NCBI RefSeq assembly: GCF_027923765.1
Contig: NZ_AP026709.1
Span: 553,501-617,500, forward strand
Length of the DNA: 64,000 nt
Source of the DNA: Pseudodesulfovibrio nedwellii
GTDB taxonomy: Bacteria; Desulfobacterota; Desulfovibrionia; Desulfovibrionales; Desulfovibrionaceae
Direction: 5' to 3'
This document shows positions 39,467 to 62,280 of this stretch, piece by piece. The notes beneath the pieces are model-generated. The model was not told the DNA's origin. It did no database searches and was given only the letters and a program-made list of their open reading frames with translations. Within the stretch, counting starts at the first letter, position 1. Each line of letters opens with the position of its first letter. The position numbers were made by a program, and so were the translations under genes.

Positions 39467-41575
39467 CTACCTTTTGAATGCGTCGCCAATGAGGGATCGA
39501 TCATCAAAGGTATTGTTTTTGTCGTAGCAAATCAGTCCGCACTGTAGGCATCGGTTGGATTCGGCAAGAGCTTCTTCTTGACTGAGTGCACCTTCAACTT
39601 CATTGAATGAGCAGTTCCTGTCATCGCCGTGGCAGAGATGTGGCATTATGGCCCGATTTTGGCGTTCAACTTGGTCGATTTCTTTGAATAAGGTGTACGG
39701 AATCATTTCAGTCTGCATGGTTTCCGGTATGGGGATGTCGCCTTGCTGCATGAAGTAATGCATGGAGCGGGCGGCCTTTCTTCCATCACCAATGGCCGAG
39801 ATTACGAGATCTGGGCCTGTATAGACATCGCCAGCGGTGAAAACTCCCGGAATGATGGTTTCAAAGGTTTTTTCATCTGCCACGATGGTTTGCCAACGGG
39901 TGGTTTCGAATTGACAGGTTTTTTCATCGCCATCTTCATAAAGACAGCTGAGGTCAGGTTTTTGTCCGATGGCAGGAATGATTAGGTCTGCGGACATAAG
40001 AGCTTCTGAACCTTCTTTTTTGATTGGACGACGTCTGCCTGAGTCATCAGGTTCGCCCAGTTCCATTTCATAGTATTCAAGGTGTGTTGCTCTGTCGTTT
40101 TCGTCGCCGACGACACGGGCTGGAGCGGCCAGAAATTTGAAATCAACGCCTTCTTCTTCGGCACCAATGATTTCTTCCATGTTGGCGGGCATTTCCGCTC
40201 TGGTGCGTCGATACATGAGTGTGACTTTCGCTCCCAGACGGATGCAAGTTCTGGCTGCGTCAATGGCGGTGTTTCCGCCGCCGACAACGATGACGTGTTT
40301 GCCGACTTCTGGTTTTTGGCCCAGAGCATGAGCTGTGAGAAATTCGATACCGCCCATGACACCTCCAAGGTCTTCGCCTTCGGCGTACATGCCGCTGGCC
40401 TGCCATGCGCCGATACCAAGGAAGAATGTTTCGTATCCTTCTTTTTTGAGTGATTCGATGGTAAAATCCACGCCAAATTTGGTGTTGAGCTTAGCTGTGA
40501 CACCGAGGTCCAAAATTCCCTGTATTTCCCAATCCAGATCAGCCTTGGGCAACCGATATTCTGGAATACCGTATCTGATCTGTCCGCCGAGTTTCGGCAT
40601 GGCTTCAAATATAGTTGGGCTGTGCCCCAGTCTGCGGAGGAAGTAGGCACAGGACAAACCGGCAGGTCCGCCACCGATGATAGCGACTTTTCTACCGGTG
40701 TCCTGAGCACATGGTATGGTCAGGTGTTTGCCGGAACGGAGTTCCCGATCAGCAACAAACCGTTTGAGCATGTTGATACCGACTGGATCGTCCACAAATT
40801 GTCTGCGACATTCGGTTTCACAAGGACGAGGACATACGCGACCACAGGTGATAAGAAGGGGGTTTCTTTCCTTGATGGTCATGACGGCGCCGTCGAAGTC
40901 GCCTTCTTTTATTTGTTGAATATATTTGGGGATATTAATTTGTCCGGGACATTTCTGTCGGCACGGGGCCAGACAATCCGTTGTCTGGTTCAGGTGTAAC
41001 AGGTGGGCTGACATGCCGGAAACCGTGATGACGCCGCGCGGACATGCATCAACACAATTGCCACAGGCCTTACATTCTTCCGGGTCAATGACAGGGAGTC
41101 CGTCAGGGCTCATATGAATGGCATTAAAGGGACAAGCACGAACACAGGACCCGAGGCCAAGACAGCCTTCGGGGCATGTCTTTGACCCGCCGTAAAGTTG
41201 GTGGGCGGCCCGGCAATCAAGAGCGCCTTCATAGTGAAAGCTGTTTTCTGCGCGAATGCCACCTGTGCAGTCCCGGATAGCGAGCTCTGGTTCACGTTCG
41301 ATGACTTTTTGTCCCATGATACCTGCGACGGCTTTGCTTGTATCAGCATCGGCTACGATACAAACGGACGCCGGAGCTTTGCCTGCAACAATGGCCGCTG
41401 CTGCGCCTGAGCATCCCGGGAATCCGCAACCGCCACAATTGGCGCCGGGTAGATTATCTTCAATGAGGCTTATACGTGGGTCTTCTTTGACGTAGAGCAG
41501 CTTGGAGGCAATACCCAGAATCCCTGCCGCCCCAAGTCCGATGCCGAAAAGAGTCAATCCTGATGTCACTATCAT
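39467..41575 (-). CDS. rnfB: RnfB fused to a GltD/NfnB-like FAD-NAD(P) oxidoreductase
   Basis: This 702-aa protein is much longer than ordinary RnfB (about 180-330 aa). Residues 1-170 are RnfB: a membrane anchor, ANCGGCGFPGC for one cluster, then CLGLGSCVRACP and CKACGNCVDACP. Residues of about 190-270 form the GltD-type iron-sulfur helical domain (CLAPCRQKCPGQINIPKY, CGRVCPRPCETECRR). FAD binding is AIIGGGPAGLSCAYF (about 300), NAD(P) binding is VIVVGGGNTAIDAARTC with YRRT (about 440-460), then FTAGDVYTGP. A last Cys cluster, CLQCGLICYDKN, is near 680. The YRRT arginines favour NADPH in this family. It ends the rnfCDGEAB operon and could pass electrons between NAD(P)H and ferredoxin. Confidence 0.93.
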   Translation of the reverse strand: MIVTSGLTLFGIGLGAAGILGIASKLLYVKEDPRISLIEDNLPGANCGGCGFPGCSGAAAAIVAGKAPASVCIVADADTSKAVAGIMGQKVIEREPELAIRDCTGGIRAENSFHYEGALDCRAAHQLYGGSKTCPEGCLGLGSCVRACPFNAIHMSPDGLPVIDPEECKACGNCVDACPRGVITVSGMSAHLLHLNQTTDCLAPCRQKCPGQINIPKYIQQIKEGDFDGAVMTIKERNPLLITCGRVCPRPCETECRRQFVDDPVGINMLKRFVADRELRSGKHLTIPCAQDTGRKVAIIGGGPAGLSCAYFLRRLGHSPTIFEAMPKLGGQIRYGIPEYRLPKADLDWEIQGILDLGVTAKLNTKFGVDFTIESLKKEGYETFFLGIGAWQASGMYAEGEDLGGVMGGIEFLTAHALGQKPEVGKHVIVVGGGNTAIDAARTCIRLGAKVTLMYRRTRAEMPANMEEIIGAEEEGVDFKFLAAPARVVGDENDRATHLEYYEMELGEPDDSGRRRPIKKEGSEALMSADLIIPAIGQKPDLSCLYEDGDEKTCQFETTRWQTIVADEKTFETIIPGVFTAGDVYTGPDLVISAIGDGRKAARSMHYFMQQGDIPIPETMQTEMIPYTLFKEIDQVERQNRAIMPHLCHGDDRNCSFNEVEGALSQEEALAESNRCLQCGLICYDKNNTFDDRSLIGDAFKR

Positions 41576-41610
41576 GTCAGTATTTCCTGTCTTTATTATT
41601 TGCGGCTTTT

Positions 41611-42186
41611 TTAGATCATGCCTTTGAATGCGAAGAATGCGAGCGACATCAGTCCGGCCATCACCAGTCCGATAGGTGTGCCGCGCATGGCGATTGGGAG
41701 CCTGCGTACTGCCAGTCGTTCACGAATTCCGGCCAGAAGAACAAGTGCGACCAGAAAACCCATGCCTGAAGCAAAAGCGAACATGACAGACTTCATCAGG
41801 CCGAATTCCTCACGTTGACATATGAGGGCAATACCCATGACTGCGCAGTTGGTTGTGATGAGGGGAAGAAAAATTCCCAGAGATTTGTACAGTGGCGGGA
41901 CCATCTTTTTGAGGAACATCTCAACAAACTGAACAAGTGATGCAATGACCAAAATGAAGGCTAATGTTTGAAGGTAGCCCAGTCCGAAGGGGATGAGAAC
42001 GTGCCGTTGTACCAGCCATGTAATGGCTGTCGCCATGACGGCGACGAAGACCACAGCTCCACCCATACCTATGGCAACGCCGGATTCCTTGGAAGTTCCA
42101 ATGAAAGGGCAGTTACCGAGATATTGTGCCAGTACGATGTTGTTGACGAACATCGCACCTATGAAAAGAAGGAAGAATTCCTGCAT
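41611..42186 (-). CDS. rnfA: Rnf complex subunit RnfA
   Basis: This integral membrane subunit of about 191 aa has six helices and the conserved FFLLFIGAMFVNNIVLAQYLGNCPF opening. RnfA and RnfE together hold the membrane iron-sulfur centre in solved Rnf structures; the conserved cysteines NCPF and TNCAVMG are present. I use the ATG at 42186, which has a GAGGG site; the frame opens earlier at 42210. Confidence 0.95.
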   Translation of the reverse strand: MQEFFLLFIGAMFVNNIVLAQYLGNCPFIGTSKESGVAIGMGGAVVFVAVMATAITWLVQRHVLIPFGLGYLQTLAFILVIASLVQFVEMFLKKMVPPLYKSLGIFLPLITTNCAVMGIALICQREEFGLMKSVMFAFASGMGFLVALVLLAGIRERLAVRRLPIAMRGTPIGLVMAGLMSLAFFAFKGMI

Positions 42187-42200
42187 GATAGTATCCCTCG

Positions 42201-42881
42201 TTATGAACAATTAGAAGCACTGCCGCATCCGCCGCAGGAACCACAGTCGTGAGTGGGGGCTTCGACCGCTTTCAAGCCTTTGCGCCGCCGTTGAACATTT
42301 TCCACAAAGGTCATCAGGGCGAGCAGAACGCCAAGGCTGACAAAAGCTCCTGGTGCTTCGACCATGAAGCCAAAAGGTTCAAAACCTTGCCATGTGACAT
42401 CCGTTCCAAAGAGTTGCCCCTTGCCGAGGACTTCACGCAATGCGCCGAGAAATGTCAGGGATATGCCGAAACCCATTCCCATGCCGAGTCCGTCAGCCGC
42501 AGACAGTAGGGGCGGGTTCTTGGAGGCAAAAGCTTCAGCTCGGCCAAGGATGATACAGTTGACCACGATGAGTGGGACAAAGATGCCAAGCTGTTGATAG
42601 AGCGGGTATGCAAAGGCCTGCATGAGCAGTTCAACGGCAACGACCAGTGAAGCCGAGATAGCGATAAAACAGGCAATTCTGACTTTGGCTGGAATGAGTT
42701 TTCTGACCAGTGAGACCAGAAGGTTGGAAAGGGTGAGGACAAAGACTACAGCCATGCCCATGCCCAGCCCATTATCTGCTGTGTTCGTGACTGCCAGCAC
42801 AGGACAGAGCCCCAGTACCAGTTTGAACGGGGGGAGGTCCTTCCAGAGACCCTTGGAGAATTCTTTCCATAATTTATTCAT
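42201..42881 (-). CDS. rnfE: Rnf complex subunit RnfE
   Basis: This membrane subunit of about 226 aa has six helices, with GLCPVLAVTNTADNGLGMG near the N-terminus and IVNCIILGRAEAFA in the fourth helix, both containing the cluster-binding cysteines shared with RnfA. The C-terminus has extra cysteines (DCGSCGGCGSASNCS), a possible metal-binding tail that canonical RnfE lacks. The ATG at 42881 has GGAG 8 bases upstream; a second, poorer start lies at 42893. The stop is 14 bases before rnfA. Confidence 0.95.
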   Translation of the reverse strand: MNKLWKEFSKGLWKDLPPFKLVLGLCPVLAVTNTADNGLGMGMAVVFVLTLSNLLVSLVRKLIPAKVRIACFIAISASLVVAVELLMQAFAYPLYQQLGIFVPLIVVNCIILGRAEAFASKNPPLLSAADGLGMGMGFGISLTFLGALREVLGKGQLFGTDVTWQGFEPFGFMVEAPGAFVSLGVLLALMTFVENVQRRRKGLKAVEAPTHDCGSCGGCGSASNCS

Positions 42882-42917
42882 TATATGCTCCATTTAGTGG
42901 CGTCTTCACACTGTGTG

Positions 42918-43493
42918 CTAGGACCAATCCTTGGCGAATTCGGATTTCAGTGAATTGAATATGACAATGGCATTTTGAACAGCGGAAACAGTTCCGGTGG
43001 AGGATATGGTTGCTCCGGCAACGGCATCAATGCTGCCGCCATTCTTTTTGAGGTTCATTGAATCAAGCGGATGCTCCTTGAATTGGGTGGTAAACCCGTG
43101 AGAAGCGACGCGAGAACCCAACCCCGGTGTTTCTTTCATAGTTGTGATGCCAATGCCGGACAACGTGTCGGATTTGATGTCAAATCCAACCATAACGCCG
43201 ATATTACCGCCGTAACCTCTACCGGATGTCTCGAAGGCGACTGCGGTTAGCTCTCCGTCGTGGATCGCTGGAAAGACCGTTATTGTTTTACCGTCCATTT
43301 TGAATTTTTTTCGGTCCTTGATAGGGTTGTTGTTATACTTGTGGAGGACCGATTCGATGGCGGGAGCCTGAACAAAAGTCAGTACCTGTTCTTCGATAAT
43401 AGGGGCAGTGGCTTGTTTAAGCGCTGCCAGTGTCACTCCCGACAATCCACAAATCAGGGAGAGTACGATCATCATTTTGAGCATTTCTTTCAT
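42918..43493 (-). CDS. rnfG: Rnf complex subunit RnfG (covalent flavoprotein)
   Basis: This 191-aa subunit has an N-terminal membrane helix (about 7-25) and a periplasmic FMN-binding domain. The flavinylation motif is DAVAGATISS with Thr162 as the predicted FMN-phosphothreonine, a modification made by ApbE outside the cytoplasm. KETPGLGSRV is another family signature. AGAGG precedes the start. The window's only ApbE domain is the MFS-ApbE fusion at 57820-60000. Confidence 0.94.
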   Translation of the reverse strand: MKEMLKMMIVLSLICGLSGVTLAALKQATAPIIEEQVLTFVQAPAIESVLHKYNNNPIKDRKKFKMDGKTITVFPAIHDGELTAVAFETSGRGYGGNIGVMVGFDIKSDTLSGIGITTMKETPGLGSRVASHGFTTQFKEHPLDSMNLKKNGGSIDAVAGATISSTGTVSAVQNAIVIFNSLKSEFAKDWS

Positions 43494-43496
43494 GGG

Positions 43497-44447
43497 TTAC
43501 CTCTTTCCGAAAGGTCTGGGGCGAATACGTTCCAAGACCGGCGTGAGCAGGTTGGCAAGCAGGATGGCAAAAGGCACTCCGTCAGGATAGATGCCATAGA
43601 CTCGGATGATGACAATCATGACCCCGGTAATTATTCCGAAGAGAAGCATGGGGATTTGTCTGTTAGGTGATGACGGGCCGTCGGTCGCCAGGAAAAAGGC
43701 GCCGAATAGCGTGGAACCAGTCAACAGATGGAGAGTTGGCGTGGCATAAATCGTGGGGTCAGCCATGTTGAAGAGACCCGCAGTAATAAGGACTCCTCCG
43801 ATGACACCGACCGGAATGATGGTGGATATATGTTTACGAATGACGAGAAACAACGCGCCGGTTACAACGCCAGCGATTTGGGTTGCTCCCAGTCCACCGA
43901 GTTGTTTTCCGAGGAATAACGCACGGGAGTCGGTAATCATGACGGCATCAAGGCCGAAGTTTTTGAGTTGGGCCAAGGGATATGTGAGATCAACATTGAG
44001 CATAGTTGCGTCAATATCCATGAACCCGGGCCAGGATATCCGACATACCGCCCATCCGATGAGTGGTGCGCAGAATGGACTGCCACCGAGCCCGCCAAAC
44101 ATCATTTTACCCAGTATAATGGATGCGGCACTTCCTATGGTGACAAGCCACCAAGGGGCAGATGCCGGTAAAAGAAATGCGAAGCAAAGCCCGACGGTGA
44201 AAGCGTGGAAATCGCGCACTTGGGGTTTTTGATCCATGAACATGGTGCACACAGCTTCTGTGAGGATAGCTGTTGCCACAGAAAGCGCCATGACGCGGAA
44301 AGCTGTCATGCCGTATGAAGTCATGGCCATAGCAGCCGCTGGTATCATAGCCAGAAGAATATTAACCATCCTTCCCTGAACAGTGATGCCACGATGTCGA
44401 TGGGGCGGGACCGAGACGGTCAATGCGAATGGATTGAGTTGTTTCAT
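43497..44447 (-). CDS. rnfD: Rnf complex subunit RnfD
   Basis: This 316-aa NqrB/RnfD-family integral membrane subunit has about nine helices. The second covalent FMN site is LLTGSTLFGAFFLATD near residue 245, with the Thr of TGST as predicted attachment. RnfD moves ions as part of the redox-driven pump. It starts immediately after rnfC and ends 3 bases before the rnfG start. Confidence 0.95.
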   Translation of the reverse strand: MKQLNPFALTVSVPPHRHRGITVQGRMVNILLAMIPAAAMAMTSYGMTAFRVMALSVATAILTEAVCTMFMDQKPQVRDFHAFTVGLCFAFLLPASAPWWLVTIGSAASIILGKMMFGGLGGSPFCAPLIGWAVCRISWPGFMDIDATMLNVDLTYPLAQLKNFGLDAVMITDSRALFLGKQLGGLGATQIAGVVTGALFLVIRKHISTIIPVGVIGGVLITAGLFNMADPTIYATPTLHLLTGSTLFGAFFLATDGPSSPNRQIPMLLFGIITGVMIVIIRVYGIYPDGVPFAILLANLLTPVLERIRPRPFGKR

Positions 44448-44449
44448 GG

Positions 44450-45550
44450 CTATTTCTCCTTTCCAGCCACACTTTTGGCTCGTTCAAGTTCGTTTTTTGC
44501 GAGCCGGATATACTGAAGCATGGGGCGTTGTGCGATACAGAAGAAGCCGCACAATCCACATTCAAAGCAGGCATCCACAGATTCATCGGCTGCTTTGTCG
44601 TACATGCCGAATTCCGCGTAGCTGGTGATCATGGCTGGATCGAGTCTGGCTGGGCAGTGACGAATGCATTCACCGCAACCAACACAAGGGGAATCCTGTG
44701 CAACGGGGGCGGAATTTTTGACTAAAGTGATGGCGGTGGTGTCGCGAGTCACCCCCTGCATGGGGCTGGCAGCGGCTGACCCGCGAAGAACACCACCGAG
44801 TACGATACGATCTCGGTCTTCGATATTGTCACCAGTTATATTGATGATTTCTCCGACAGGAGTTCCGAGGAGAAAGATCTGACTCGTTTTATCTACTGTG
44901 ATCATGGTTTCCATGACGGGCAGGCCCGTTTCCATGATTCTTCCGATGTGAAAGACTGTTTCCAGGCCCACAACGAGCGTGTTGTCCGGATTTTCTTTGC
45001 CGGTTACGGTCAATGCAACCATGGGGTCCAATCCGGCAGGGTACTGTTCTGAAATTTTAGTGTATCGTGTGCTTTCCAGCAGGTCCGATCCATTGATTGC
45101 TGCCAAATATGTTGCGGGTGGTGCATATATGGAAAGAAGAGCCTGTATCCCCAATTCAAGAGTTCCACTGGCCGTAGACAAAAGTGTTGAGCGAGCCGTG
45201 AGCCCTTGTTCTTCATCCACGCCGTTTATGATCAATGTTTGGATATCCGAAGCTGCTGTGATGTCAGCCCCAAGTTCAATGAGTGCTTTAAGAAGCTCTT
45301 GCCCGGCAATACCATTGAACGAAATTGGTTCGACTGTTTCATCGCCATCAGCGGTTATACGAATTCGGTAGGGGTCGACATGGTCGATAGTTCCAGCCAC
45401 TGGAGCATGGATATCTCCAAGGCCAGAGATTGAGGTTGTGGCAATTCGTTCACCGCGTTTGACAGCTTGACCACATGTAACCAGATAACAGTGCCTTTTT
45501 AGCGTTATTTCAGCCTGCGAGATGGCTCGAGGTGTATCGTGCTTATTCAT
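44450..45550 (-). CDS. rnfC: RnfC lacking the canonical NADH/FMN site
   Basis: This 366-aa RnfC is shorter than usual (about 430-700). It retains the barrel-sandwich part (IHAPVAGTIDHVDP), the LIING strand, the SLBB-like region and two [4Fe-4S] sites (CVGCGECIRHCPARL and CFECGLCGFFCIAQ). Two motifs of canonical RnfC are missing. The glycine-rich NADH loop (GLGGAGFPT in other species) is replaced by ELGADITAASD, and the FMN-binding AECEPY segment reads GVDEEQG. It therefore probably cannot bind NADH or FMN in the normal way. It lies 6 bases after the decahaem cytochrome gene, suggesting a different electron partner. Confidence 0.9.
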   Translation of the reverse strand: MNKHDTPRAISQAEITLKRHCYLVTCGQAVKRGERIATTSISGLGDIHAPVAGTIDHVDPYRIRITADGDETVEPISFNGIAGQELLKALIELGADITAASDIQTLIINGVDEEQGLTARSTLLSTASGTLELGIQALLSIYAPPATYLAAINGSDLLESTRYTKISEQYPAGLDPMVALTVTGKENPDNTLVVGLETVFHIGRIMETGLPVMETMITVDKTSQIFLLGTPVGEIINITGDNIEDRDRIVLGGVLRGSAAASPMQGVTRDTTAITLVKNSAPVAQDSPCVGCGECIRHCPARLDPAMITSYAEFGMYDKAADESVDACFECGLCGFFCIAQRPMLQYIRLAKNELERAKSVAGKEK

Positions 45551-45556
45551 GTTCGC

Positions 45557-46324
45557 CTACCTAGTGATGTGGCATTGGTTACAGTTGTCAGGTCCATATG
45601 GGCCGACCTCATTTTCTTCGTGGCAGGACATGCATTGGTCGTGAAATGCATTCATGCGTGGAAGAACGAGTTCCCGTGTTTCGGATTCATGGCATTTGTT
45701 ACAGGAGGTGAAGTCGCCCTCGTATTGGGTCATATCCACTTGAACATGGCAGGATTTGCAGCTTGAGAGGCCTTTATCAAACATGTCTTCATGACAGTTC
45801 GTACAGCTTTGGTGTCCAGCCAGACGCATGCTCAACAGATCACCAGAGTCATCACCTTTGTGGCAGTTGGCACATTTTTGCGGCTCGGGTTCGATTTCTT
45901 TGCCGTGATGGCAATCATAGCAATCGTCTGCATAGTCTTTGTGTTCTTCATGATCGAAAATTATTGCTTCATATTCAGTGTGATGACAGCGAACGCAGTA
46001 TGATTCATTAGGGAATGAATCCATGTGGTTATTAATATATTCATCATTAAATTCGTTGGGATGACATGAACCACAGTCAAGCGCTTTGTTATCCTCAACC
46101 GTCATTACGTCAGTGCCTTTTTCGTGGTGACATTGAATACAGTTGATCTGGTAGTCACGATGATGGACGAGGTGGGAAAAGATGACTTTTCCGCCATTGT
46201 TCTGGAACAGAATCCGTGCTGGCATCTGTGCTTTCTCACTCGTTTTGATGTATCCGATTGCGGACGCTGCCAAGAGTAAAATAGCTGCAAGAATGACCGG
46301 AAGTATCTTTGAATTTGAACGCAT
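45557..46324 (-). CDS. Decahaem cytochrome c of the Rnf operon
   Basis: This 255-aa protein has an N-terminal uncleaved-looking membrane anchor or signal (about 7-26) and ten CxxCH haem c sites, from CIQCH near residue 62 to CNQCH near 250, plus many extra His for axial ligation. A decahaem cytochrome (DhcA) heads the rnf operon in Desulfovibrio, and this matches it by position and haem number. It probably exchanges electrons with the periplasmic cytochrome c3 pool and RnfG/RnfC. A GAGAGGAAAG site precedes the ATG. Confidence 0.93.
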   Translation of the reverse strand: MRSNSKILPVILAAILLLAASAIGYIKTSEKAQMPARILFQNNGGKVIFSHLVHHRDYQINCIQCHHEKGTDVMTVEDNKALDCGSCHPNEFNDEYINNHMDSFPNESYCVRCHHTEYEAIIFDHEEHKDYADDCYDCHHGKEIEPEPQKCANCHKGDDSGDLLSMRLAGHQSCTNCHEDMFDKGLSSCKSCHVQVDMTQYEGDFTSCNKCHESETRELVLPRMNAFHDQCMSCHEENEVGPYGPDNCNQCHITR

Positions 46325-57805: not shown

Positions 57806-57831
57806 TTTCAACAATAATATTATTGTTGAAA
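57806..57831. repeat. 26-bp perfect palindrome over the MFS-ApbE stop codon
   Basis: The sequence from 57806 to 57831 is its own reverse complement, centred on AATATT. It covers the last codons and stop of the MFS-ApbE gene. It is AT-rich, so as an RNA hairpin it is weak; as DNA it is a good candidate for a dimeric protein site. Confidence 0.7.
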
Positions 57832-60000
57832 GTTATCTGTGGTCACAATTTGCATGTCGGGAGTGAACCATATGGCTGATGTCGTAGGGTATTCTTTCTT
57901 CATGATACTTTTACCTTTGAAAGGTCCGAGAATAAAGAGAGCTGTTGCTAGTGCATCCGCTTTTTCTGCACTGTCGGCGATGACGGTCACTCCAACCGAT
58001 GCGTTGGCAGAACTCATATCGGATGGGTTGATAATGTGGTGTCGAAATTCTTTCTTCCCGTGGTTTTCAACGGTTACAAATTGTTGGTAGTCCCCAGATC
58101 CGCATACTCCTTTTTCCCGAACTGTAATGGTCTTATACACAGTATCGGAACGAGGATGTCGTATGCCAACGGTCCAATCCTGGTCTCCGAAACAATAGAA
58201 GTCGCCTCCTGCTTCTACTATACCAGATTGAATTCCTTGTTTTTGCAGCAAGGCAACAGCAGTATCAATGATCGTGCCTTTGGCTATTCCTCCAAGATCA
58301 AGAGCCATTCCCTTCTTTTTCAGGCGAATACGTTTGTTTTCATTATCAACTATGACCATGTTGTGATCGACAAGCCCTTTTTTCATCTGGGCCAGAGTTT
58401 CATCAAGAGCATAGTAGAGCGGAGAGGTTGTCAGAGCACCGATCGTTGGATCAAAGGCCCCGTCAGTTTTTTTGCTGTATTCAAGGGCCCGGTTGATTAA
58501 GGCGTATGACCTTGTTGAGGGTGTCACCCAATACTGTCCGGCTCCTCGGTTGATTCTTCCGATTGAACCTTCTAAATTGCGATGGTCGTAATCTTTTTGC
58601 AACATCCGCATGGTAGTGATTGTTTTTTGAGCAGCTTTGTCTGCGGCGGCTTGACTTTGAGCCTTGATGGTCAAGTTAATTATTGTACCCAGACCAACAT
58701 CGGTGAATCGGTATATGGTCTTGTCACCAGCAAGGAAAGGATGCGTTTGAGGAATAGATAGGACGTACAGAGGAATTGCGGCCAGCAATGCGCAACAAAG
58801 GGCCGCGCTCCATGAAAGTGTTTTTTCCCAATACAGATGATCCCGAAAGCTGGAAGAGAGCAGGGGGATGCAGGAAAAAACACCTATTATCGCTACAAAT
58901 TGCAAGGCCGGTGCGACTGAGTGGATTATTTGAATTAAAAATCCGCCAAGAAGAGGACCAAAGAGAAATCCGAGTCCGGCAGCAAAGTGCGTGGTGCCAA
59001 AGGCCATGCCTTGATTTTGGGACATATCGGATGCAGCGGTCATGGATGCTGGAATGGATATGGCGGTTCCAAGTCCCATGATTGCTCCCCAGAGAATGAA
59101 ATGCCATGGCTCTGAACTTGTCCCGAGGGCAAAGAGAGCACTCGCGCTGAGAAGCATACCAAAAACGATAGTACCAAGTTGTGTTTTTTTGCCATGAATT
59201 CTTCCCATGAGCGGAAGACAAAGGCTGGTTGTAAAGCTTGGTATTGCATACAAAATTGCGATTTCAAACCCGGTCCACCCGAGTTTTATGGTTAAAAGAA
59301 TTGGATAAAAAGCTGTGAGTAGACCAATGCCAAGAGTTCGACCGAATATGGAGAACAGTAGGTACGTCGCATCAAGTTTTTTGAGAACGGAGGGATTGGA
59401 GGTACTTTTTCCCCTGACTGTTCGAGTTTCTTTAGGCAGAAAGAAAATAATAATCAGTGTTGCAAGCCCCATACAAAGGGACAGTCCCAGAAGCGGTGGT
59501 TTGATGGAACGGTTGAGATAGAGCAATCCACCAAGAAGAGGTCCGCAAAAAAGGGCTATGTTGAAAGCCATGGAATACAATGCGAACCACCGTGGGAGTG
59601 TCTCTTTTGACCCATTTCCTCCCAATGTGGCCATCCCAATTGGTTTGATGAGACCGGAAACAAGACCCAGAATGAATTGAATGACATACAGAGTCGTTAA
59701 ACTCGTATGAAAAAAGTACAGTAAAGGAATAATACAGCCAATGAATGTCGTGAGAAGTAGTGGAAGACGCGGGCCAACTTTGTCTCCCCAAAGGCCGGCA
59801 ACTGGTGCGATTAATAATTTGGCAAGATAGTATCCCGCAAATGCACTGCCAAGCCAGATGCCACTGATTCTTTCATCGAAAGATAGAAGTGGAATTGTAA
59901 ATGAAAATAAGCCAATACCCAGTGTCGAAAAAAGCCCACTGGAAAGTATCGCCCAAAAAATACGGCGAGTATTGTGAGTGTGTGTATCGGAATTGCTCAT
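57820..60000 (-). CDS. MFS transporter fused to ApbE flavin transferase
   Basis: This 726-aa fusion has two parts. Residues 1-385 are a 12-helix major facilitator transporter, with GDKVGPRLP after helix 2. An additional helix (about 396-416) leads into an ApbE domain (about 425-726) with DGAFDPTIG (513-521), LDLGGIAKG (568-576), EAGGD (596-600), HHIINP (654-659) and DSAEKADALATA (676-687), the last being the Mg/FAD site. With 13 helices and a cytoplasmic N-terminus, the ApbE part should lie in the periplasm. ApbE transfers FMN from FAD to Thr in RnfG and RnfD. The transporter half may supply the flavin, but that is inference. Confidence 0.92.
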   Translation of the reverse strand: MSNSDTHTHNTRRIFWAILSSGLFSTLGIGLFSFTIPLLSFDERISGIWLGSAFAGYYLAKLLIAPVAGLWGDKVGPRLPLLLTTFIGCIIPLLYFFHTSLTTLYVIQFILGLVSGLIKPIGMATLGGNGSKETLPRWFALYSMAFNIALFCGPLLGGLLYLNRSIKPPLLGLSLCMGLATLIIIFFLPKETRTVRGKSTSNPSVLKKLDATYLLFSIFGRTLGIGLLTAFYPILLTIKLGWTGFEIAILYAIPSFTTSLCLPLMGRIHGKKTQLGTIVFGMLLSASALFALGTSSEPWHFILWGAIMGLGTAISIPASMTAASDMSQNQGMAFGTTHFAAGLGFLFGPLLGGFLIQIIHSVAPALQFVAIIGVFSCIPLLSSSFRDHLYWEKTLSWSAALCCALLAAIPLYVLSIPQTHPFLAGDKTIYRFTDVGLGTIINLTIKAQSQAAADKAAQKTITTMRMLQKDYDHRNLEGSIGRINRGAGQYWVTPSTRSYALINRALEYSKKTDGAFDPTIGALTTSPLYYALDETLAQMKKGLVDHNMVIVDNENKRIRLKKKGMALDLGGIAKGTIIDTAVALLQKQGIQSGIVEAGGDFYCFGDQDWTVGIRHPRSDTVYKTITVREKGVCGSGDYQQFVTVENHGKKEFRHHIINPSDMSSANASVGVTVIADSAEKADALATALFILGPFKGKSIMKKEYPTTSAIWFTPDMQIVTTDNFQQ

Positions 60001-60123: not shown

Positions 60124-60168
60124 AAAGAAGGCCTTGCGAAAAACATGCGCAAGACCTTCTTTTTTTGA
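60124..60168. terminator. Terminator between the TPR gene and the MFS-ApbE gene
   Basis: Arms AGAAGGCCTTGCG and CGCAAGACCTTCT pair with one mismatch and are followed by a T run on the plus strand; the minus strand, on which the TPR gene ends, has CTTCTTTTAA. Confidence 0.75.
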
Positions 60169-60189: not shown

Positions 60190-62280
60190 TTAGAATGGAT
60201 AAACTAAAGTGCTTTCAGTGCTTTTCTGTTTGCCTATCTTTTTATTGATGGCATCGATACGGGCCTTGGCAGCTTCTCGCTGTTCTTTACGCGCGGCATT
60301 ACGGATAACTGTTCCAAGCAAGCGTTTAGCGGTTTCGTATTTCCCCCTTTTTTCATAAATGAGGGAAGCACGATACATGGCGGTCAGCGCCCAGATGTTT
60401 TCCTGTGGATATTGCCAGGCCAGTTTGAGGTAATAATCCAAGGCTTTATCCATGTTACGCATGGCGTGCTCGCCTTCGCCCAACCAGAACAATGTTTCAG
60501 CCTGAAGAGCGGTCGTCATGGTGGATCGATTGTCCCACATAATCAGCAGTTCTTTTTGGGCTGTTTCGTAGTCTTTTCGCTGTTGATATAACAACGCCAT
60601 ACGTAAACGGGTCATGACCGGGATAGGTGTGCCAGTTTTGACCATTTCCTTATATGTATCTAGCGCTGCGGACTGTCTGCCAGAATCAAGTTCAATACGT
60701 GTTTTGATATCCAGCCAGGATGTTTTTAGGTTCGAAGGCAAACTTGGCTCATCTATTTGGTTTAAATAAAATGCACTTAACTGTAGATTTTTGGTTTTGG
60801 CTGCGTCGTTTGCCAAATAGAGTAATCCTTGAATGCCGAATGAAGAATCATCAAAAAGAAATGCTGAGCGTTTGGCCAGTGAAACAGATGGTTTCTCATT
60901 AAAGAGTTGTTGCCAGTATGCAAGCAGCAATAATTTGTCCAATGGGTATTGATCAAGAGAAAGCGAAGCAAGTTGTTTGCTCGGAGCGGTTGTCCAGAAA
61001 GGAGCTTCTGTTTGAGCATTAACGTCTTGTCCCGCCGCACCGGAAAGGGCGGTCAAAATTGGATAAAGAGCATAAGATTCAGTCGGTTTTTCCGGTAGGA
61101 TATTATTAAAGTTGTCCTTGAAGGTTAGGAGTCCTGCAAGACGAAGAGAAATCGGAAGTGTTTTTTTATTTAAAGAATTCCAAATAGTTCTGGATGATTC
61201 AACATCTCCGTTAGATAATGTTAAAGCAAGTTTAAAGTTCGTGAGAAGGGCGGATGTTTCTTCAGAGATAAGCATTGATCTCAGTTCATTATCGATAGCC
61301 TTTTGGGCATCATCAAGCGACATGGTCAAAAGATTATTCCTAAACTGCGTCCATGGTCCAGAATGAGGATTGCCGAGGAACCACTGACTTCGGGATTTGG
61401 AGTAGGGAGCTAAAAGATTTCCAGACCAGAAAGCATTGGCCTTGAGGTATTTTCCGGTGGTGAAAGGGGAAAGATCTGTTGGCAGAGTGCCTTTTTCAAG
61501 GAAGAGTATGATTGATTTCCAGAATATCTTGACGGTTTCTTGTGAAATTTTGTCAATCTGGCTATTCGCTGCATCAAACTTTTCCAAAGACGCGGAAGCC
61601 ATGGACTGAGCGATCAATGTTGTATCATTAGGAAGTAGGAAGGGTGCTGTAATAGAAGGGGATTCAGTAGGTTCTAATTCTTTTTTTTCTTTTAATTCCG
61701 CATGATTGTTGTCGGTAAGTGCTTGAGCAATACTCCAGAAGCTGTCATTCCATGCACGCTGTCCTACCGCCATGACCAGATTGAGTGCCTCTTTTTGAGA
61801 GGATCTGGATAGAGTATGATTTGCGGAATATGACCAGTACATTTTGAGCCAGACATCATGCCAGATATCAGCAAGTTCTGGTTCAGCCTTTAAACGTCGT
61901 TTGGCGACTGAATCATCCATGAATTTTGTAGCCTGAGTGAACCAGAGGACGGCTTTTGAAAGGTCACCTAGTCCTCGATAAGCCTGTCCACCAAGCCATA
62001 ATCTTTCTGCTTCAAGGGTACGATCCTCAAAAGCAGGTGTCATTTCAATGATTTCAAGTGTTTTTGCTGGTGAATTGAGGTTTAAATACACTTGAGCCCG
62101 TTTAAGGATTGCTTCAGGAGAGTCTTCTGCAGTTTCGGTTGCATATTCCTTTTCAAGGCGATCCCAAGCTCCATAGTGTTCAAGCCATTTTTGAAAGGTC
62201 TGTTTTTGTGCCGCCAGGCTGTTGGTGCCTGGAATAAGCAAACAGACTATTAATGCGAAAAAGGAAAGCGAAAGTTTCAT
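60190..62280 (-). CDS. Periplasmic TPR-repeat protein
   Basis: This 696-aa secreted protein has a signal peptide (1-24, ending SLAAQ) and helical repeats. TPR-like units are visible at about 55-120 (PEAILKRAQVYLNL, LWLGGQAYRGLGDLSKAVLWF) and at 560-665 (AETLFWLGEGEHAMRNMDKALDYYLKLAWQYP), ending in a Lys-rich helix. The middle 250 residues show no clear repeat. Similar proteins act in envelope assembly or protein complexes; no partner is evident from neighbours. A hairpin terminator follows. Confidence 0.8.
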   Translation of the reverse strand: MKLSLSFFALIVCLLIPGTNSLAAQKQTFQKWLEHYGAWDRLEKEYATETAEDSPEAILKRAQVYLNLNSPAKTLEIIEMTPAFEDRTLEAERLWLGGQAYRGLGDLSKAVLWFTQATKFMDDSVAKRRLKAEPELADIWHDVWLKMYWSYSANHTLSRSSQKEALNLVMAVGQRAWNDSFWSIAQALTDNNHAELKEKKELEPTESPSITAPFLLPNDTTLIAQSMASASLEKFDAANSQIDKISQETVKIFWKSIILFLEKGTLPTDLSPFTTGKYLKANAFWSGNLLAPYSKSRSQWFLGNPHSGPWTQFRNNLLTMSLDDAQKAIDNELRSMLISEETSALLTNFKLALTLSNGDVESSRTIWNSLNKKTLPISLRLAGLLTFKDNFNNILPEKPTESYALYPILTALSGAAGQDVNAQTEAPFWTTAPSKQLASLSLDQYPLDKLLLLAYWQQLFNEKPSVSLAKRSAFLFDDSSFGIQGLLYLANDAAKTKNLQLSAFYLNQIDEPSLPSNLKTSWLDIKTRIELDSGRQSAALDTYKEMVKTGTPIPVMTRLRMALLYQQRKDYETAQKELLIMWDNRSTMTTALQAETLFWLGEGEHAMRNMDKALDYYLKLAWQYPQENIWALTAMYRASLIYEKRGKYETAKRLLGTVIRNAARKEQREAAKARIDAINKKIGKQKSTESTLVYPF

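Follow-up and report, generated by a model that had tools for sequence, protein, structure and literature searches.

FAD is made in the cytoplasm, and ApbE, the FAD:protein FMN transferase, uses FAD in the periplasm. A 2025 review describes FAD's route to ApbE as obscure. We analysed a stretch of 64,000 nucleotides from the genome of Pseudodesulfovibrio nedwellii (the window; the genome is G000 in our sample), in which one gene encodes both an MFS transporter and ApbE. The question raised by this locus is whether a single protein could supply flavin to the periplasm and also attach it there, and to which substrate.

Domains and predicted topology of the fusion protein

The fusion gene is an unbroken open reading frame with an ATG start (Table 1). 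The ApbE profile PF02424 matched its product with an E value of 4.5e-61 over profile positions 1-265 of 266, indicating a full domain, and ApbE chains in the PDB matched as well, the best being 1vrm (E 2.2e-32). The MFS_1 profile (PF07690) matched with an E value of 1e-37 in two stretches, the best of which covers residues 19-199; these stretches and 12 hydropathy peaks show that the MFS part contains both halves of the 12-helix fold. Neither PF07456 (EetB/ECF) nor PF01554 (MATE) was among the Pfam matches listed for the protein.

Table 1. Coordinates of the fusion gene, its domains and the predicted Rnf substrates in the window
Feature	Position	Strand	Details
MFS-ApbE fusion gene	57820..60000	-	726 aa, one chain; ORF, Pfam, homologues
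MFS domain	58846..59958	-	residues 15-385; 12 predicted helices; DHA (drug:H+ antiporter)-like
Thirteenth helix and linker	58693..58845	-	residues 386-436; helix centre at about residue 404
ApbE (FAD:protein FMN transferase) domain	57871..58692	-	residues 437-710
Probable terminator hairpin	60125..60160	-	gap separating the fusion from the TPR gene (60190-62280); found by eye
RnfG, predicted substrate	42918..43493	-	NF045876 RnfG_DVU2794; acceptor Thr162, codon 43008-43010, in VAGATISST
RnfD, second predicted substrate	43497..44447	-	GAT at residues 187-189 (Thr189)
rnf cluster	39467..46324	-	multihaem cytochrome c, rnfC, D, G, E, A, B; no apbE of its own

A hydropathy profile computed as the mean over the alignment has 13 membrane peaks N-terminal to the ApbE domain, centred at residues 27, 59, 89, 118, 153, 178, 222, 256, 284, 307, 348, 373 and 404. 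Two further peaks, at 576 and 682, were barely above the threshold (1.03 and 1.07) and lie within the ApbE fold; we regard these two as soluble segments. Sequence conservation is poor in the thirteenth helix and linker; the helix is present, with its hydrophobicity kept, in all 55 fusion homologues examined. In the window protein, lysine and arginine residues number 17 in the even loops 0-12 versus 4 in the odd loops 1-11, a bias that is not uniform, since loop 10 has none. Given the cytoplasmic N-terminus that is usual for MFS proteins, 13 helices and this charge bias would place the ApbE domain in the periplasm, the location also predicted in the first-pass annotation. A single-sequence AlphaFold2 model of the protein had a mean pLDDT of 40.3.

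The ApbE domain carries the residues expected of the enzyme. H655 was kept in all 75 aligned ApbE sequences, and D682 and T686, which we take to be the Asp and Thr near the Mg/FAD site of ApbE, in 74 of the 75. H655 is probably the counterpart of His257 of Vibrio cholerae ApbE, described as the essential His in PMC5655446.

The fusion recurs in other genomes. Matches at E 1e-30 were obtained in 55 of 348 genomes of the class; 53 of these have the fusion (54 genes, two of them in G307) and two have a stand-alone MFS only. Within the genus the fusion is present in 34 of 36 genomes, and in a phylum sample of 395 genomes it was found only in the window genome and in G684, a genome of another family that is 76% complete and lies outside the class sample; scoring was limited to three candidates per genome in the class search and to two in the phylum search, and weaker relatives of the MFS may have escaped it. 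The fusion gene of G305 has its N-terminus cut by a contig end. Recurrence in 53 class genomes and in G684 argues against a frameshift or an assembly artefact, and the single chain of 12-helix MFS, thirteenth helix and full ApbE domain that had been proposed is confirmed by the reading frame, the Pfam matches, hydropathy and this recurrence. A search of plasmids with the fusion returned 14 records, none of which reached 80% query coverage.

Mean pairwise identity among 54 homologues was 0.43 for the MFS part, 0.23 for the linker and 0.55 for ApbE. In a tree of ApbE sequences, which left out four mis-extracted rows (L155, L157, L161 and L165) and fus_L027, whose start was mis-chosen, the fusion ApbEs (29 rows) grouped in a clade of their own with SH-aLRT 100, distinct from the stand-alone ApbEs linked to rnf (18) or to nqr (10), a result that favours a single origin. 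The hairpin between the TPR gene and the fusion suggests that the fusion is transcribed as a separate unit; with a loop of 9, above the maximum of our hairpin scan, the hairpin is absent from the list of that scan. Neither an FMN riboswitch nor any other flavin-linked RNA was found near the fusion (three tRNAs in the window) or near the nqr-linked MFS genes discussed below (one tRNA in nine loci).

Rnf as the predicted substrate

The complete, single-contig genome of 3,762,062 bases contains one ApbE, which is the fusion; a separate apbE, which would have spoken against the fusion as the enzyme for RnfG, is thus absent from it. Two FMN_bind proteins were found in the same genome. Both are RnfG and both have GAT at Thr162, the second copy (G000:C1:895702-896271) in the motif ISGATISST; the Thr162 site named for the RnfG of the window is thus present in the sequence (Table 1). 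DUF2271 is absent from the genome.

The RnfD of the second rnf cluster (L080 5726-6706, G000:C1) has GLGEVHIA, versus GLGATQIA in the first RnfD, and is without the Thr acceptor; the second Rnf may carry covalent FMN on RnfG only.

Across the 348 class genomes, among the matches listed, ApbE and the RnfG model were both matched in 179, one without the other in 8 genomes each way, and neither of them in 153. The E value limit for RnfG was 0.001, and 166 of the 187 exceed the curated cut-off. An RnfG match is present in every one of the 53 fusion genomes of the class. Among the matches listed, the fusion is the sole ApbE in 29 of the 53 (26 of them in the genus), several of which are incomplete drafts, such as G229 at 67%.

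Gene order bears on the same point. On the minus strand the window runs from the TPR gene through the fusion, a sensor kinase, a sigma-54 regulator, frdCAB, fumarase, malic enzyme, a DASS-type transporter and a cytochrome to rnfCDGEAB, pta and ack. In G235 (L073) and G684 (L132), the fusion directly follows rnfB on the same strand. A stand-alone apbE follows rnfB in 21 of 23 comparison loci, which were chosen for an ApbE near rnfG or an unassigned ApbE; the exceptions are L152 (opposite strand) and L149 (no rnf). The post-rnfB position is occupied by rnfF in Desulfovibrio alaskensis, according to PMC4841214. For the 30 of 53 fusion genomes in which the distance between fusion and RnfG was tabulated (both on one contig), 22 have the two within 17 kb of each other, 7 have them 43-54 kb apart, and in one they are 3.2 Mb apart. 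In genus g34 the fusion adjoins frdC in 17 of 18 loci (L114-L131), with rnf often elsewhere, so that linkage to rnf is not universal. Since these distant cases weaken the linkage, it is the sole-ApbE argument that carries the weight.

Positions 35950-57559 of the window form a continuous C4-dicarboxylate block, which comprises the kinase, with a Cache domain, the sigma-54 regulator, frdCAB, fumarase, malic enzyme, the DASS-type transporter, rnf, pta and ackA.

Taken together, the sole ApbE, the restriction of FMN_bind to the RnfG copies and the post-rnfB position in G235 and G684 lead us to infer strongly that Rnf is flavinylated by the fusion protein. The assignment of Rnf as target in the first-pass annotation is in this respect well supported, also by the 29 fusion genomes with no other ApbE match, and on these sequence grounds we regard the activity as very probable.

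Two members of the genus lack the fusion. G289 has two stand-alone ApbEs (loci L133, L148 and L149), one of which ends an rnf operon (L148); they are a natural replacement of the fusion. The other, G308, with 82% completeness, gave no match to ApbE.

The transporter half and its relatives beside nqr

We examined the MFS half for signs of transport function. Residues G69, D73 and G76 in loop 2-3 and P154 and G157 in TM5 are kept, the last two in all 68 sequences of a set of 54 fused and 14 nqr-linked MFS. We take the loop 2-3 signature to be motif A and the GPxxGG of TM5 to be motif C, which is presumably typical of exporters. With these signatures kept, the MFS half is probably more than an inert anchor. 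Q108 (TM4), R221 (TM7), S315, P317 and others are likewise invariant in 68 of 68. Typical DHA members presumably have the Arg of motif B in TM4, and the Gln108 found instead throughout the fused and nqr-linked set is a departure from them. Among ten other MFS (nine of G000 and one of G524), position 108 is Arg in four and Gln in one, and position 221 is Arg in two. R221 and Q108 may bind the phosphates of FAD or take part in coupling. The solved sequence closest to the MFS domain is NorA, a multidrug exporter, which suggests efflux and carries no information on flavin.

We then asked where relatives of this MFS domain occur without ApbE. In the class, 14 MFS-only relatives were listed at E 1e-30, with 32-37% identity to the fusion MFS. 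All 14 adjoin nqrABCDEF and apbE (the nqr set being complete, or cut off in L078), although the loci come from three genera only and are not independent events. In 13 of them the MFS gene immediately precedes nqrA in the same orientation, and in one (G283, L078) it is convergent beyond apbE. NCBIfam models identified NQR subunits in L079 (A, B, C and F), L078 (F) and L082 (A), and the others were assigned by similarity to these. According to PMC12052999, ApbE must attach FMN to NqrB and NqrC for NQR to work, and the nqr loci have the acceptor motifs LAGAT in NqrC and YSGAT in NqrB. One MFS family is thus joined in a single chain with the ApbE that serves one FMN-dependent pump and, unfused, neighbours the ApbE that serves the other.

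In those 14 genomes, among the matches listed, the nqr-type MFS lies within 10 kb of an ApbE in 12 of 12 rows versus 5 of 132 for other MFS, a comparison in which the rows are not independent and the genomes were chosen for carrying the gene. Two of the five other rows are one gene matched twice, next to the nqr-type MFS of G259. Just before that nqr-linked MFS lies an open frame of 896 aa with two successive MFS matches (G259:C9:116291-118774). In a small MFS tree, which omits nine G000 paralogues whose long branches spoiled a larger tree, the nqr-linked MFS formed one clade (SH-aLRT 100), and their placement relative to the fusions had a support of 21. The phylum search gave one counter-example, an MFS-only match in G524 (26% identity, E 4e-31) with no ApbE within its 18-kb locus. 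G307 (L081, L082 and L083) carries two MFS-ApbE fusions, one of them far from rnf, plus an nqr-linked stand-alone MFS.

The claim that the MFS domain exports flavin thus has indirect support only, from the kept transporter motifs, the invariant Gln and Arg and the position of all 14 listed relatives beside nqr-apbE. On balance we think it likely that the domain exports a flavin nucleotide.

A proposed mechanism and its alternatives

We propose, with about the same assurance, that the fusion is a membrane-anchored flavinylation machine for Rnf with the MFS domain as flavin exporter. The MFS domain, a DHA-type exporter, would move FAD, or a different flavin nucleotide, out of the cytoplasm into the periplasm, where the thirteenth helix would hold the ApbE domain and the tethered ApbE would capture the released FAD. 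ApbE would then transfer FMN to Thr162 of RnfG, and probably also to Thr189 of RnfD, with release of AMP. Members of this MFS family would also work as separate proteins, encoded next to the Na+-NQR operon and the apbE there. Whether these proteins make up an undescribed MFS family of dedicated FAD exporters, unfused for NQR and fused to ApbE for Rnf as a channelled device, seems to us a nearly even call that leans slightly toward no. A direct hand-over of FAD between the two halves, as in the self-contained delivery device of the first-pass annotation, is more doubtful.

An alternative is that the MFS half is a former drug-type exporter, now mainly an anchor or tether or engaged in unrelated export, and that FAD comes through another transporter, such as a MATE protein. 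The closest solved relative is, after all, a multidrug exporter; MATE proteins are present in 36 of 36 genomes of the genus, so FAD could arrive by a Bfe-like route; and most rnf operons of the class have a stand-alone apbE with no such MFS alongside. However, 39 positions of the MFS part hardly vary over 53 fusions, with a much less conserved linker, and the unfused relatives cannot tether anything, yet they adjoin nqr and apbE in every listed case. The dN/dS of the MFS part is also low (0.106 for the window versus L007 and 0.082 versus L008), though the results by domain are mixed over four pairs, L018/L024 ranking the domains differently, and we give them no weight. We consider the anchor reading unlikely. 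Still less probable is a transporter working inward, which would recover AMP, or FMN or riboflavin, from the periplasm: the presumed TM5 exporter motif is kept, and the MFS domain is nearest to efflux pumps. Recovery would nonetheless predict the same gene neighbourhoods, and AMP is described as both a product and an inhibitor of ApbE in PMC12052999.

The presence of frdCAB beside the fusion, in the window and in 17 of the 18 g34 loci, raises the further idea of a cytoplasmic ApbE that modifies soluble or quinol fumarate reductase, for which PMC12052999 offers precedents in the cytoplasmic ApbE of Klebsiella and the fused ApbE of trypanosomatids. Yet the thirteenth helix, with its hydrophobicity conserved throughout the homologues, is predicted to place ApbE outside, FrdA is of the ordinary quinol type, FMN_bind was found in the genome only in RnfG, and the fusion ends the rnf operon in G235 and G684. 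We reject this idea as highly improbable.

The reading that we favour, a flavin exporter joined to the enzyme that serves Rnf, can be set beside known systems. The rnfF/apbE of D. alaskensis (PMC4841214) and of other rnf operons resembles the fusion in enzyme family, in predicted target and in the post-rnfB site seen in G235 and G684; unlike the fusion, the stand-alone ApbEs of rnf operons are lipoproteins or signal-anchored proteins of about 340-380 aa with no transporter. In Listeria and Clostridia, EetB-FmnA pairs a dedicated FAD exporter with a co-located apbE, including in Rnf clusters (PMC9973259). EetB, however, is an ECF transporter and a polypeptide separate from ApbE, whereas the fusion has an MFS domain in the same chain, and EetB (PF07456) was found in none of the 348 class genomes. 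The Gram-negative FAD/FMN exporters Bfe of Shewanella and YeeO of E. coli are of the MATE family, not MFS (PMC5655446), and Bfe is said, in PMC9973259, not to co-locate with apbE. In the ApbE-fumarate reductase of trypanosomatids, ApbE likewise shares one chain with a protein from its own pathway (PMC12052999), but that protein is the substrate of ApbE, and the partner here is a transporter.

Our search of the open literature, with subscription papers mostly outside it, found no description of an MFS-ApbE fusion, which leaves absence from print unproven; the word MFS does not appear in the main texts of PMC8238504, PMC12052999, PMC11334425 and PMC12174285, and database records may already annotate such chains. 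The fusion is a variant of known parts, and flavin export now has an independent genomic line in the nqr-linked MFS. The fusion and its relatives beside nqr are a concrete candidate for the supply of FAD to ApbE, and the question is testable with a single gene. If the proposal is true, MFS would join ECF and MATE, the families of flavin exporters already reported.
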